In this document: positions 31,693-35,705 of the stretch, piece after piece
Position numbering within the stretch: position 1 is the stretch's first letter
Layout of the letters: the number at the start of each line of letters is the position of its first letter
From: Rhodobacter viridis
Lineage (GTDB): Bacteria; Pseudomonadota; Alphaproteobacteria; Rhodobacterales; Rhodobacteraceae
Length of the DNA: 64,000 nt
Assembly: GCF_003217355.1 (NCBI RefSeq)
Contig: NZ_QJTK01000002.1
Coordinates: forward strand, 186,001-250,000
Direction: 5' to 3'
Notes under the pieces: generated by a model
What the model saw: only the letters and a program-made list of their open reading frames with translations
What the model was told of the DNA's origin: nothing
Databases searched by the model: none
Program-made: the position numbers and the translations under genes

Positions 31693-32571
31693 ATGAGCGA
31701 GATCGATTGGCGGCGTATGCCCCCGCTTACAGCGCTGCGCGCCTTTGCCGCAACGGCAAGCGAGGGGGGGTTCAGTGCGGCGGCCCGCAAGCTGAATGTC
31801 ACCCACGCTGCCATAGCGCAACAAGTTCGCGCGCTTGAGGCCGATCTGGACGTGCCGCTGGTGTGGCGGGACGGCAAGCATCTGCACCTGACCCCCGAGG
31901 GCGAACGCTTCGCCAAGGCGCTGGCGGACGGGTTTTCGATGATACAATCGGCGGCAGAAATGCTGCGCGCGGACAATAGCGAGAAGGCGCTTTCGGTGAC
32001 GGTTCCCCCGGCTTTTGCCTCGGAATGGCTGATGCCGCGACTTGCGCGGTTCTGGAAGAAACACCCCGATATTCCGCTCTCGCTGTTGCCCGATCCGCGG
32101 GTGGTGGATCTGAAGGAAATCGGTGCGAATATCGGTATTCGTTTTGGCGTAGGAAAATGGCCGGGCGTTATTTCCGAATTTCTGACGGCTGCCCCTCAGG
32201 TTGTAGTGGCGGCGCCGGAATTGCTGGGAGGGCGAAAGAAACTATCTCTGCGCGAAATGGCGATGCTGCCGTGGGTGCGGGAAGGCGATTGGCCCGAACA
32301 GATGCAACTATTGGAGTCCATGGGGCTGGTTCCGGCGGCGCTGAAATTCGTCGATTTCCCGAACGAGGAATTGGCGCTTGCGGCCGCGCGCGAAGGGATC
32401 GGCCTGCATCTGGAAACCGAGGCTCTGATCGTTGAAGATCTCAAAATCGGCTGGCTGGTGAAAATTCACGAACTGACCGAGGAAAGCTTGGGCTATTATA
32501 TCGTAAGGCCGCCGGGTCGATTGAACCCCGCGGCCAAGATCTTCATCGAGTGGTTGAAGGCAGAAGCCTGA
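31693..32571 (+). CDS. hvrB: LysR-type transcriptional activator HvrB
   Basis: A 292-residue LysR regulator. The N-terminal winged helix-turn-helix is clear: LTALRAFAATASEGGFSAAARKLNVTHAAIAQQVRALEADLDVPL (about 10-54), followed by the linker helix and a periplasmic-binding-protein-like effector domain (from about 95). In R. capsulatus HvrB activates ahcY and orf5 and autoregulates; the arrangement here is identical. Ends 1 bp before the convergent hvrA stop. No membrane segment. GGTGAGC lies upstream of the ATG. Confidence 0.93.
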   Translation: MSEIDWRRMPPLTALRAFAATASEGGFSAAARKLNVTHAAIAQQVRALEADLDVPLVWRDGKHLHLTPEGERFAKALADGFSMIQSAAEMLRADNSEKALSVTVPPAFASEWLMPRLARFWKKHPDIPLSLLPDPRVVDLKEIGANIGIRFGVGKWPGVISEFLTAAPQVVVAAPELLGGRKKLSLREMAMLPWVREGDWPEQMQLLESMGLVPAALKFVDFPNEELALAAAREGIGLHLETEALIVEDLKIGWLVKIHELTEESLGYYIVRPPGRLNPAAKIFIEWLKAEA

Positions 32572-32883
32572 TCAGATCGTCAGATCCTCGAGCGATTTGC
32601 CCGCGGCCAGCGCGGCTTCGACCCATTTCGGCTTGCGGCCGCGCCCGGTCCAGGTTTCGGACGGGTTTTCCGGGTTCGCATATTTTGCTGCAACGGTCTT
32701 GCGCGGCTTGGTGGCGCCTGCAACGGCCAGGATTTCGGCCAGCGGATAGCCCATCTTGCGGGCCATTTCTTCCAGCTCTGCGAGAGCTTCCTTTTTCTTG
32801 CGATCTTCGTAAGTCGCAATCGCGCGATCGACCTTGGACCGCAGCGCCTTGAGTTCGTTCAGAGAAAGCGCATCGATATCCAT
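32572..32883 (-). CDS. hvrA: H-NS-family trans-activator HvrA
   Basis: A 103-residue H-NS-like protein. The N-terminal helical oligomerisation segment (LNELKALRSKVDRAIATYEDRKKKEALAELEEMARKMG) is followed by the C-terminal DNA-binding motif TWTGRGRKPKWVEAALAAGKSLEDL. In R. capsulatus HvrA activates the puf and puh photosystem operons under dim light and affects nitrogen fixation. It follows regA on the same strand. The start codon lies in the right arm of a perfect 15-bp inverted repeat whose loop contains the Shine-Dalgarno GGAGGC, so translation may be structurally controlled. Confidence 0.94.
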   Translation of the reverse strand: MDIDALSLNELKALRSKVDRAIATYEDRKKKEALAELEEMARKMGYPLAEILAVAGATKPRKTVAAKYANPENPSETWTGRGRKPKWVEAALAAGKSLEDLTI

Positions 32884-32918
32884 GAAAGCCTCCGGTGAAG
32901 TGGTTTCATGGATATCGA
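32873..32918 (-). promoter_or_regulatory. Perfect 15-bp inverted repeat spanning the hvrA start
   Basis: TCGATATCCATGAAA (32873-32887 and, inverted, 32904-32918) is a perfect 15/15 inverted repeat with a 16-nt spacer. In the hvrA transcript the spacer is CCACUUCACCGGAGGC, which holds the ribosome-binding site, while AUG and codons 2-4 lie in the 3' arm of the stem. It could be an RNA switch on hvrA translation or a DNA operator. Confidence 0.75.
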
Positions 32919-32949
32919 GTATTATTCCCGCGCAATCAAGATTTATTTA

Positions 32950-33504
32950 TTATCGCGGGCTGCGTTTGGCCAAAATCCGCTGCAACGTGCGACGGTGCAT
33001 ATTGAGACGCCGCGCGGTTTCCGAGACGTTGCGATCGCAAAGCTCGTAAACGCGCTGGATATGTTCCCAACGCACGCGGTCGGCGCTCATCGGATTTTCC
33101 GGCGGCGGCGGCAAGGATTCCCCCTTGGCCAGAAGCGCATTGGTGATGTCATTCGCATCGGCTGGTTTCGACAGATAATCCGTCGCGCCCATTTTCACCG
33201 CCGCAACCGCGGTGGCAATCGCGCCATATCCGGTCAGCACGACGATCCGCGCCTCGGGGCGACGCTCGCGCAGCGCTTCCACCACTTCAAGACCATTGCC
33301 GTCTTCCAGCCGCAGGTCGATCACGGCATAGGCCGGTGCCCGGTTCTGCACGATCGCCTTGCCGGCCGAAACCGTTTCCGCGATCTCGGTCTGAAAACCG
33401 CGCTTTTCCATTGCGCGCGCAAGCCGGGTCAGGAAAGCGTTATCGTCATCGACCAGCAGCAGCGACCTGTCGCTCCCGAGTTCGGCGAATTCTTCTTCGG
33501 CCAT
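32950..33504 (-). CDS. regA: Response regulator RegA (PrrA family)
   Basis: A 184-residue response regulator. The receiver domain has the acidic pocket LLLVDDD (about 15-21), phosphoacceptor Asp63 in YAVIDLRLEDGNG, Thr in VVLTGYG and Lys in YLSKPAD. A proline linker (LPPPPENP) leads to the Fis-type helix-turn-helix (ERVYELCDRN-like, then VSETARRLNMHRRTLQRIL). RegA turns on photosynthesis, carbon and nitrogen fixation and respiration genes under low oxygen. ATG at 33504 gives the known 184-residue length; an upstream ATG adds five residues. Middle gene of senC-regA-hvrA. Confidence 0.97.
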   Translation of the reverse strand: MAEEEFAELGSDRSLLLVDDDNAFLTRLARAMEKRGFQTEIAETVSAGKAIVQNRAPAYAVIDLRLEDGNGLEVVEALRERRPEARIVVLTGYGAIATAVAAVKMGATDYLSKPADANDITNALLAKGESLPPPPENPMSADRVRWEHIQRVYELCDRNVSETARRLNMHRRTLQRILAKRSPR

Positions 33505-33556
33505 GGCTCCCCCTTTCACCCTCTTTGTTCAAGTCTAAATCTATATTTGGCGCTGG

Positions 33557-34222
33557 TCAATTTCCGTTGCCGGAACCGGGCGTTGCGCCCTCGGACTTCA
33601 GCGCGTCAAGGAAGCAGCCGACACTTTCGGCCACCGTTTCGGGTGTGGCATCGCGATCGTAATAATCGAGGAAGCCAAGCTTCGGATCCATCAGATAGGT
33701 CTGGGTCGAATGATCGACCAAGGTCGCCGGATCACCGGGCGTGCGGATCATGTAATAGGCGCGATAGGCCTTGACCGCGGCGTCGACCTGCTCGGTCGTA
33801 CCGGTCAGGCCGATCATTTTCGGGCTCATCAGATCGGTGAATTCGCTCAGCACGGGCGGCGTGTCCCGGGTCGGATCGACCGAGATGAAGATCGGCGTCA
33901 CGTCGTAACCGCGCGTCGACAGCAGATCGATCGCGGCCGCGTTGCGGGTGCTGTCGATCGGGCAGACATCGGGGCAATAGGTGTAGCCAAAGTAAATCAG
34001 GCTCGGCTTGGTGATCACGTCCTTGTCGGTGACGGTCGCACCGGTTTCCGAAACCAGCGTGAACGGCCCGCCGATCTTGGCGGCGGCACTGCCAACGCCC
34101 TTGCGGCATTGCGCGAAGCGATCGGGTTCCGAACTGCCGAAGGACAGGACGACAGAGACGCCCACCACGGCGACGACGGCTGCCGTGGCAACCAGCGCGG
34201 CGGTCTTGCTCGAAACGTTCAT
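33557..34222 (-). CDS. senC: SCO1/SenC/PrrC family copper chaperone-like protein
   Basis: A 221-residue membrane-anchored thioredoxin-fold protein. One N-terminal membrane segment (about 8-27) precedes the SCO domain with YFGYTYCPDVC (Cys83, Cys87) and a distal His171 in LVDHSTQTYLMDP, together forming the copper-binding site. SenC helps assemble the CuA or CuB centre of cytochrome oxidase and influences the redox signal reaching RegB. First gene of the senC-regA-hvrA unit, divergent from regB. ATG at 34222; a 44-residue upstream extension runs through the promoter region and is rejected. Confidence 0.95.
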   Translation of the reverse strand: MNVSSKTAALVATAAVVAVVGVSVVLSFGSSEPDRFAQCRKGVGSAAAKIGGPFTLVSETGATVTDKDVITKPSLIYFGYTYCPDVCPIDSTRNAAAIDLLSTRGYDVTPIFISVDPTRDTPPVLSEFTDLMSPKMIGLTGTTEQVDAAVKAYRAYYMIRTPGDPATLVDHSTQTYLMDPKLGFLDYYDRDATPETVAESVGCFLDALKSEGATPGSGNGN

Positions 34223-34258
34223 CGCTTCTCCTTCACGTGCAGGTGATTGATTGCTCAG

Positions 34259-34284
34259 CGCAACGGGAATATCAAGGGGTTGCG
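34259..34284. promoter_or_regulatory. Inverted repeat in the senC/regB divergent promoter region
   Basis: CGCAAC (34259-34264) and GTTGCG (34279-34284) are separated by 14 bp, within the 97-bp region between the divergent senC and regB starts. RegA is known to regulate its own locus; this is a candidate operator, but I cannot confirm it as a RegA box. Confidence 0.3.
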
Positions 34285-34319
34285 GTGAAGGTGAGGCGGT
34301 GGGGACGACGATGGCAGAT

Positions 34320-35705
34320 ATGATGAGGGCTGTCGACCGGCCGGAATTCGACATGTCGGCGAGTTTGAGCCATCAGGAATGGGTCCGGCTGCGGACGCTG
34401 ATCCTGTTGCGCTGGGCCGCGGTCGTCGGTCAGATTGCAGCTTTGGCGGCGGCTTATATCAAATACGACATCGACCTGAACCTGCCGATGTGTCTGGGCA
34501 CCGTGGGCTTTGCCGTCGCGGCCAATATCGCCGCGATCTATCTTTACCCGGAATCCCGGCGGCTGTCGCAGGCCGAAGTGACGGCGACACTTCTGTTCGA
34601 TACTGCACAGCTGGCCTTGCTGCTGTCGCTGACCGGGGGGCTCAACAACCCCTTTGCGCTGCTGATCCTGGTCCCGGTGACGATCGCCGCGACGGCGCTG
34701 AAGTTGCGCCCGACGCTGCTTCTGGGCGGCGCGACGATCGCGATGATCACCTTCGTCGCGGTCTTCAACGAGCCTTTGCGCACCCGCGCTGGCGAGTTGA
34801 TCGATGTTCCGCACATGATCGAATTCGGCTCCTGGGTGGCGATCGTGATCGGCGTGATCTTCCTTGGCGCCTATGCGCACCGGATCGCGCAAGAGATCCA
34901 TTCGATGTCGGATGCCCTGTTTGCAACGCAAATGGCGCTGTCGCGTGAACAGAAGCTGACCGACCTTGGCGGTGTGGTGGCCGCGGCGGCGCATGAACTC
35001 GGCACGCCCTTGGCGACGATCAAGCTCGTCTCGACCGAACTGGCCGAGGAGTTGATCGACGATCCCGAATTGCATGACGATGCGGTGCTGATCCGCGAGC
35101 AGGCCGAACGCTGCCGCGACATCCTGCGGTCGATGGGACGGGCGGGCAAGGATGACGTGCATTTGCGCACGGCTCCACTGCTCGCCGTGCTGCGCGAAGC
35201 TGCCGAGCCGCATCTGGACCGCGGCAAGATGATCTATTTCGACGTCGTTCCGGGCGAGGGTGGCTCCGAACGGCAGCCGACGATCTACCGCTATCCCGAG
35301 CTCGTCCATGCCCTGCGCAACCTGATCCAGAACGCCGTCGATTTCGCGCAGACCACGGTCTGGGTCGATGCCGAATGGACCGATCGCAGCATCATCGTGC
35401 GGGTCACCGACGACGGTCGCGGCTACTCGCCAAGCGTCATCAACCGCATCGGCGATCCCTTCATCTCGACCCGCTCGGCCGAGCGCAAGGAATACGAGGG
35501 GATGGGGTTGGGGCTCTTCATCGCGAAGACGCTTCTGGAACGCACGGGGGCGAAACTGCGATTCGCGAACGGCTCCGAGCCCTATCAGAAGAAGGCTCCG
35601 GTGCCGCGGCGCTCGGGTGCGGTGGTCGAATTGCGCTGGCATATCGGGCGTCTGATCGCACCCGAGACCGGCCCGCTTGGCGAGAATCTTCCGATCACGG
35701 CCTGA
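34320..35705 (+). CDS. regB: Redox-sensing histidine kinase RegB (PrrB family)
   Basis: A 461-residue membrane sensor kinase with six hydrophobic segments in the first 180 residues. The quinone-binding motif GGLNNPF is at 106-112. The H-box AAAAHELGTPLATIKL has His225. The redox box AERCRDILRSMGR has Cys265, whose oxidation or disulfide bonding silences the kinase. N-box (ALRNLIQNAVDFA) and G-boxes (DDGRGY, GMGLGLFIAKTLLE) follow. The start at 34320 reproduces the published His225/Cys265 numbering; ATG at 34311 has a slightly better ribosome site and would add three residues. Divergent from senC. Confidence 0.96.
   Translation: MMRAVDRPEFDMSASLSHQEWVRLRTLILLRWAAVVGQIAALAAAYIKYDIDLNLPMCLGTVGFAVAANIAAIYLYPESRRLSQAEVTATLLFDTAQLALLLSLTGGLNNPFALLILVPVTIAATALKLRPTLLLGGATIAMITFVAVFNEPLRTRAGELIDVPHMIEFGSWVAIVIGVIFLGAYAHRIAQEIHSMSDALFATQMALSREQKLTDLGGVVAAAAHELGTPLATIKLVSTELAEELIDDPELHDDAVLIREQAERCRDILRSMGRAGKDDVHLRTAPLLAVLREAAEPHLDRGKMIYFDVVPGEGGSERQPTIYRYPELVHALRNLIQNAVDFAQTTVWVDAEWTDRSIIVRVTDDGRGYSPSVINRIGDPFISTRSAERKEYEGMGLGLFIAKTLLERTGAKLRFANGSEPYQKKAPVPRRSGAVVELRWHIGRLIAPETGPLGENLPITA

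Follow-up and report, generated by a model that had tools for sequence, protein, structure and literature searches.

A conserved RNA hairpin at the hvrA start of Rhodobacter and Thioclava, possibly a read-through silencer with a built-in promoter

The 64-kb window (the whole stretch of DNA analysed here) belongs to a Rhodobacter near R. capsulatus, and its HvrA is 86-87% identical to that of R. capsulatus SP108, a strain which carries the same hairpin at its hvrA start (locus L056). RegA and HvrA have roles in photosynthesis and nitrogen fixation. Both genes are encoded on the minus strand, 66 nt separating the end of regA from the hvrA AUG, and the genes and hairpin elements are as follows, in the order of the minus strand.

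33532..33560, minus strand: promoter-like TTGACC-17-TAGACT just 5' of regA, from the consensus scan
32950..33504, minus strand: regA, response regulator, with the ATG start chosen (the mechanical open reading frame begins at 33519)
32904..32918, minus strand: 5' arm of the hairpin, TCGATATCCATGAAA in the hvrA sense, from complementarity and compensatory changes; it includes the -10-like GATATC
32888..32903, minus strand: 16-nt loop with the Shine-Dalgarno sequence GGAGG (32889-32893), from the repeat listing and the sequence
32873..32887, minus strand: 3' arm, made up of the last 4 leader bases, the hvrA AUG and the codons up to base 2 of codon 4
32572..32883, minus strand: hvrA, H-NS family (PF00816, Pfam Histone_HNS), from the open reading frame and Pfam

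The promoter-like site upstream of regA is a possible source of a read-through transcript, and regA may have its own start there. At the other end of the locus, the hvrA stop codon abuts that of a convergent LysR-type gene (31693-32571) at 32569-32572, and there is no room for a terminator between the two genes.

The two arms, 32873-32887 and 32904-32918, are complementary at 15/15 positions around a 16-nt spacer in the inverted-repeat listing of the window, exactly as the first-pass annotation had claimed. Its description of the contents was equally accurate: in the hvrA sense the spacer contains CGGAGGC (32894-32888), and the 3' arm reads UUUC followed by AUG GAU AUC GA, so that it holds the start codon and the coding sequence as far as base 2 of codon 4. 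It had also judged such a repeat very unlikely by chance, and this was borne out by several comparisons. The repeat is the longest perfect one listed in the window with arms up to 60 nt apart. Over 400 kb of this contig, with loops of 3-40 nt allowed, it comes fourth; of the three longer ones, two are members of a repeat family and one resembles a terminator. For a 101-nt stretch, the RNA fold z was -5.3, and 0/200 shuffles folded as well. Compared with 89 gene starts with ATG and a Shine-Dalgarno sequence in the 400 kb, the hvrA start ranked first in fold z (-5.9; next -2.6) and first in the predicted cost of opening -18..+15 (28.3 vs a mean of 15.2, sd 4.5 kcal/mol), and seventh in raw folding energy. 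When all 317 crude open reading frame starts of the 400 kb were used, many of which are probably miscalled, it was second in fold z, 10th in opening cost and 61st in raw energy; restricting the stretch to -14..+3, which leaves half the stem intact, put it 17th of 317 by opening cost and 23rd by energy. No description of a hairpin at the hvrA start was found in the literature searched by titles and abstract starts.

A palindrome family of the form GTATTTGnnCCAAGAAGAA-N~10-TTCTTCTTGGnnCAAATAC was observed on the same contig outside the window, with 19 matches in 400 kb that form seven two-armed copies and five single arms (sites include L165:10486-10546, L167:6647-6712, L167:16173-16218 and L181:15245-15304). 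The arms of this family vary between copies yet largely stay complementary.

The genus search covered 18 Rhodobacter genomes, 17 of which gave an HvrA-like match and 13 a match downstream of regA (L003-L015). In all 13 of these regA-linked loci a hairpin was predicted over the Shine-Dalgarno sequence and/or the start codon, with fold z from -1.95 to -7.3. A match was present in 13 of 16 Thioclava genomes, from which 10 distinct linked loci were used, and most of these also fold a hairpin over the Shine-Dalgarno sequence and/or the start of hvrA. The Thioclava stem is a different one (for example GCUCCGGAU/AUUCGGAGC) and closes the Shine-Dalgarno sequence. The element held in the helix thus varies by species, the AUG in some and the Shine-Dalgarno sequence in others, and it appears to be closure that is conserved, not sequence, with the helix shifting from an AUG-in-stem to a Shine-Dalgarno-in-stem form.

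The Rhodobacter covariation alignment comprised seven sequences of the AUG-in-stem form, and L007, with its helix in another register, was excluded from the pair count. Standard pairs occupied 96.2% of the pair cells, 8/15 pairs were invariant, and both sides had changed in 3/15 pairs (six such cells). The covariation score was reached by 0/500 shuffles and two weaker measures by 20/500 and 11/500, and pairing fell to 24-47% when the partners were slid by 1-3 columns. One compensated change, at columns 6-47, corresponds to a silent substitution in the third codon of L012. For Thioclava, where 6 of the 10 distinct loci were aligned, both partners had changed in 2/11 pairs, and the covariation term amounted to only -0.11. 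The first-pass annotation had made its idea depend on whether pairing is kept between relatives whose arms vary, and that was the pattern found: the arms vary and the pairing is kept. Sequence comparison therefore gives good support for an RNA element that is under selection at the RNA level and whose structure controls translation. This part of the translational switch proposed in that annotation stands with the covariation, and the triggers that it named gained no support.

The covariation also bears on a reading at the DNA level, in which the repeat is a protein operator, as the first-pass annotation had suggested as well, or a coincidence of a -10 GATATC with the codons GGATATC. GATATC is itself palindromic and is present in both arms of most AUG-in-stem species, as such a reading would have it; however, the compensation at leader columns 15-38 and 16-37 is outside both constraints, in addition to that at the synonymous codon position 6-47, the arm sequence of Thioclava differs from that of Rhodobacter, and the position of the stem shifts. 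A palindromic operator or a coincidence is thus very improbable.

The closure was compared with other positions of the same loci. In a control set of 23 loci (13 Rhodobacter and 10 Thioclava, omitting the distant L162), fold z was below -2 at the hvrA start in 19/23, at the regA start in 0/23 and at three sites inside regA in 0/23 each. The four loci that failed the cut were L010 (-1.95) and the Thioclava loci L070, L159 and L160 (-1.2 to -0.4). A wider set held 98 distinct regA-linked hvrA starts from loci L003-L162, the rest being unlinked, without the motif by which hvrA was found, or duplicates. In this set, which leans to close relatives (80 of 457 relatives were kept, chosen as the best, and of the 231 family genomes that matched RegA, 30 contributed loci), z was below -2 in 27 starts and not in 71, with a median z of 0.18 in the latter. 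In a quick tree of RegA plus HvrA with 98 rows, 22 of the 27 hairpin loci were found in one group of 28 rows (SH-aLRT 84), which holds Rhodobacter, Thioclava, Pseudothioclava and Defluviimonas nitratireducens. The hairpin label required 7 changes on this tree vs 23.9 when shuffled, although some labels hinge on the z < -2 cut (L010 at -1.95; L092 beside L079). A single origin of the hairpin was rejected, since 7 changes are needed and Paracoccus onubensis (L115, L117) looks independent.

The hairpin was also considered as an intrinsic terminator or attenuator, and this was rejected: no U run follows the 3' arm, and the strict scan of the window lists no terminator there. In the regA-hvrA gap, a terminator was predicted in none of the 27 hairpin loci, the window included, vs 6/68 loci without the hairpin; this count omits the three loci of intermediate z (L010, L037 and L095). 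A terminator taking the place of the hairpin in the lineages without it had been expected, but the contrast between 6/68 and 0/27 is too small to count and this idea was set aside. At the base of the hairpin clade, locus L028 (genome G241) has a predicted intrinsic terminator in the gap and no hairpin, a single suggestive case.

A 15-bp stem between two cistrons, in a gap with no terminator found, would also suit a site for RNase III or RNase E at which the message is split into its regA and hvrA parts or the hvrA start of the polycistronic mRNA is destroyed. Such a site leaves unexplained why the helix covers the Shine-Dalgarno sequence or the AUG and why it overlaps a promoter-like motif (below), and as the main function of the hairpin it is quite improbable; RNase processing could nevertheless act together with the silencing of read-through that we favour.

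The closed start invites comparison with RNA thermometers such as ROSE and FourU, in which a hairpin closes the start site, and temperature was among the triggers proposed earlier. Unlike those elements, the hvrA hairpin is not predicted to melt near growth temperature: even at 50 C, opening is predicted to cost 14.6-23.8 kcal/mol in the 6 loci for which it was computed, and the helices are long and near-perfect in several species. No Rfam family matches either, since the covariance models gave 0 matches up to E = 5 in positions 32000-34500 of the window. A thermometer can thus hardly be expected here. A small RNA or a loop-binding protein, the former also among the proposed triggers, remains without support, as the loop has no long conserved seed except the Shine-Dalgarno sequence. 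The decoy AUG described in the 5' arm does open a frame of 16 codons that ends in UGA, but an AUG is present there in only 3/13 Rhodobacter loci (L003-L005), and in L004 and L005 the spacer is 1 nt shorter, which changes the frame of the decoy. In a more general form, all hvrA mRNAs would carry the whole hairpin, and an RNA-binding protein, a small RNA, a helicase or HvrA itself would open or lock it. The strong and conserved closure of the start suits such a regulated gate, and a gene of the H-NS family is a plausible target; against it, the loop sequence and even the closed element differ between species, so that no common binding site is seen. A further point against it comes from the position of the putative promoter of hvrA.

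A two-block motif with fixed spacing lies in the gap between the two genes, and its second block falls on the 5' arm. The first-pass annotation did not include this motif. The elements assigned to it are as follows.

32934..32939, minus strand: predicted -35 TTGATT of hvrA's own promoter, with TTG in 13/13 Rhodobacter, 17 nt before the -10-like block
32911..32916, minus strand: predicted -10 GATATC, inside the 5' arm, after a 17-nt spacer, from the motif alignment and promoter scoring
32904..32906, minus strand: predicted start of a short hvrA mRNA, at about -22 from the AUG and about 6 nt after the -10

In the 13 Rhodobacter gaps, the second hexamer overlaps the 5' arm of the hairpin or lies directly beside it, and TTG-N22-TATC is exact in 11/13, the hexamer ending in TAAC in L010 and in TTTC in L014. 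In the spacer columns, 5-11 of the 13 loci agree. With the alignment anchored on the TTG, the distance from the regA stop to the TTG is 10-24 nt and that from the hexamer to the AUG 24-30 nt. Passages of PMC8407463 describe alphaproteobacterial sigma70 promoters as having a TTG in the -35 element, mostly a 17-nt spacer and usually no T at -7, with 6 nt as the commonest distance from the -10 to the start. A scoring matrix of our own was made along the lines of this source, and the start was placed about 6 nt after the -10.

With this matrix, the best sigma70-like site started at -27..-19 in 44/82 cluster representatives vs 14.1 expected from shuffles, although the z cut, the matrix and this interval were all chosen after many sequences had been viewed. 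Representatives with the hairpin had a start in the interval in 15/18 cases vs 3.8 expected, and those without it in 29/64 vs 10.3 expected. In stretches of equal length, a start at -27..-19 was found in 22/23 gaps vs 26/92 regA coding segments. From the sequence we infer that the motif is a promoter of hvrA, starting transcription near -22 in the window, and since such starts are also enriched in loci without the hairpin, the promoter seems to predate the hairpin.

Judged by consensus, this putative promoter is weak (-10 GATATC), and the strict scan of the window does not list it. TTG-N22-TATC alone is not rare (7 sites in the window vs 1.63 expected), and individual loci reached p < 0.1 against shuffles in 9/27 hairpin loci and 35/71 others. 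Pairing with the MDI codons, and not a role as a -10 element, may be what conserves GATATC in the 5' arm. With the TTG set at -36..-34, a C at -37 was present in 10/13 and a T at -9 in 12/13 Rhodobacter gaps. Passages of PMC3441632 give C-37, TTG and T-9 as preferences of RpoHI in R. sphaeroides, and CTTG-N22-TATC (32911-32940) fits these, suggesting that the hvrA promoter may be of the heat-shock type.

A start farther upstream was also weighed, in which the hvrA mRNA begins at or just before the hairpin from an A/T-rich block, so that the RNA keeps most of the hairpin, and the 5'-terminal hairpin throttles translation or stabilises the mRNA. This block, at about -44 to -36, has 4-6 of 6 TATAAT matches in 7/7 AUG-in-stem Rhodobacter, which is better than GATATC, and the best-scoring site of L011 starts at -38. 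No TTG, however, precedes the hexamer of the block by 15-19 nt in any of the 7 loci, and the TTG present in 13/13 Rhodobacter is instead spaced 17 nt from the block in the arm. We consider this upstream start improbable.

The cost of opening the ribosome site was computed with the 5' end of the RNA placed at varying positions, locus by locus, in the 27 loci with a hairpin. The predicted start lay past the point at which the hairpin fails in 25/27 loci, vs 8.8 expected with even placement, the exceptions being L011 and L031, whose best-scoring site starts upstream of that point. The same result counts against the regulated gate, in which every hvrA mRNA would carry the whole hairpin, as the promoter-like motif would put the 5' end of the mRNA past the failing point; on balance, that gate seems rather unlikely. 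In the 27 hairpin loci, the predicted median opening cost was 19.2 kcal/mol for the long form and 8.3 kcal/mol for the short form, vs 10.9 and 7.9 kcal/mol, respectively, in the 71 loci without the hairpin. For the window, the predicted cost was 30.6 kcal/mol in the read-through form vs 10.1 kcal/mol in the short form. In the Rhodobacter and Thioclava loci, the Shine-Dalgarno sequence or the AUG was predicted to be closed (P unpaired < 0.2) in 20/23 long transcripts and in 5/23 of the predicted short transcripts; the latter include the window's own Shine-Dalgarno sequence and the AUG of L011, the Rhodobacter starts in this test, that of L011 included, being set from the anchored TTG.

The explanation that we favour, with moderate confidence and on the basis of predicted structures, is that the hairpin is a cis-acting silencer of read-through and that the short mRNA from hvrA's own promoter is open for translation. 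An mRNA running from regA into hvrA would carry both arms, fold, and close the hvrA AUG (the Shine-Dalgarno sequence in other species), so that RegA would be made from it and HvrA would not. hvrA would have its own promoter in the 66-nt gap, with the DNA of the 5' arm as its -10 region, and the leader made from it would be about 20-25 nt long, without most or all of the 5' arm; in the window, 13 of the arm's 15 bases would be absent. Such a short mRNA could not form the hairpin and would be translated, and HvrA synthesis would depend on the shape of the transcript and not on a ligand. In R. capsulatus, hvrA was described as transcriptionally coupled with regA (PMC5359404), in passages on the coupling that mention no hairpin; this coupling is in keeping with a read-through mRNA in need of silencing. 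The full combination, in which the shared mRNA makes RegA with its hvrA locked, and HvrA is made only from the promoter built into the lock, perhaps with a heat-shock-type sigma factor, is put forward only tentatively and, taken as a whole, is unlikely.

Similar arrangements exist in other systems. In the transposase genes of IS10 and IS50, a hairpin in read-through RNA closes the start, and the native promoter starts transcription inside the hairpin; there it guards against fortuitous insertion beside a promoter, whereas hvrA faces a fixed neighbour, regA. The leaders of T4 gene e (lysozyme) and I-TevI are also alike in having the Shine-Dalgarno sequence and/or the AUG in a helix on long transcripts (passages of PMC3014915). 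According to the same passages, long early transcripts of gene e form an inhibitory structure that reduces synthesis 100-fold, the transcripts of the late promoter, which start just upstream of the gene and lack the 5' portion, are well translated, and in related phages the late promoter lies in the DNA of the 5' strand (PMC3014915). A helix over the Shine-Dalgarno sequence or the AUG on the longer transcript was likewise found for hvrA, with those 20/23 loci predicted closed together with covariation, and by analogy the best reading is that the hvrA leader works like that of gene e. Unlike gene e, hvrA belongs to a cellular operon of two regulators, its promoter would be vegetative or of the heat-shock type and not a phage late promoter, its hairpin turns over between the AUG-in-stem and Shine-Dalgarno-in-stem forms, and the difference in translation is a predicted one.

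In the full combination with a heat-shock-type promoter, HvrA would respond to stress or light without depending on the oxygen signal driving RegA. If the proposed silencing holds, the two regulators would be separately tunable from one stretch of DNA, and RNA-seq of the operon would reveal little about how much HvrA is present. The hairpin would then place a trick known from phages in an ordinary cellular operon, where it has been kept across two genera.
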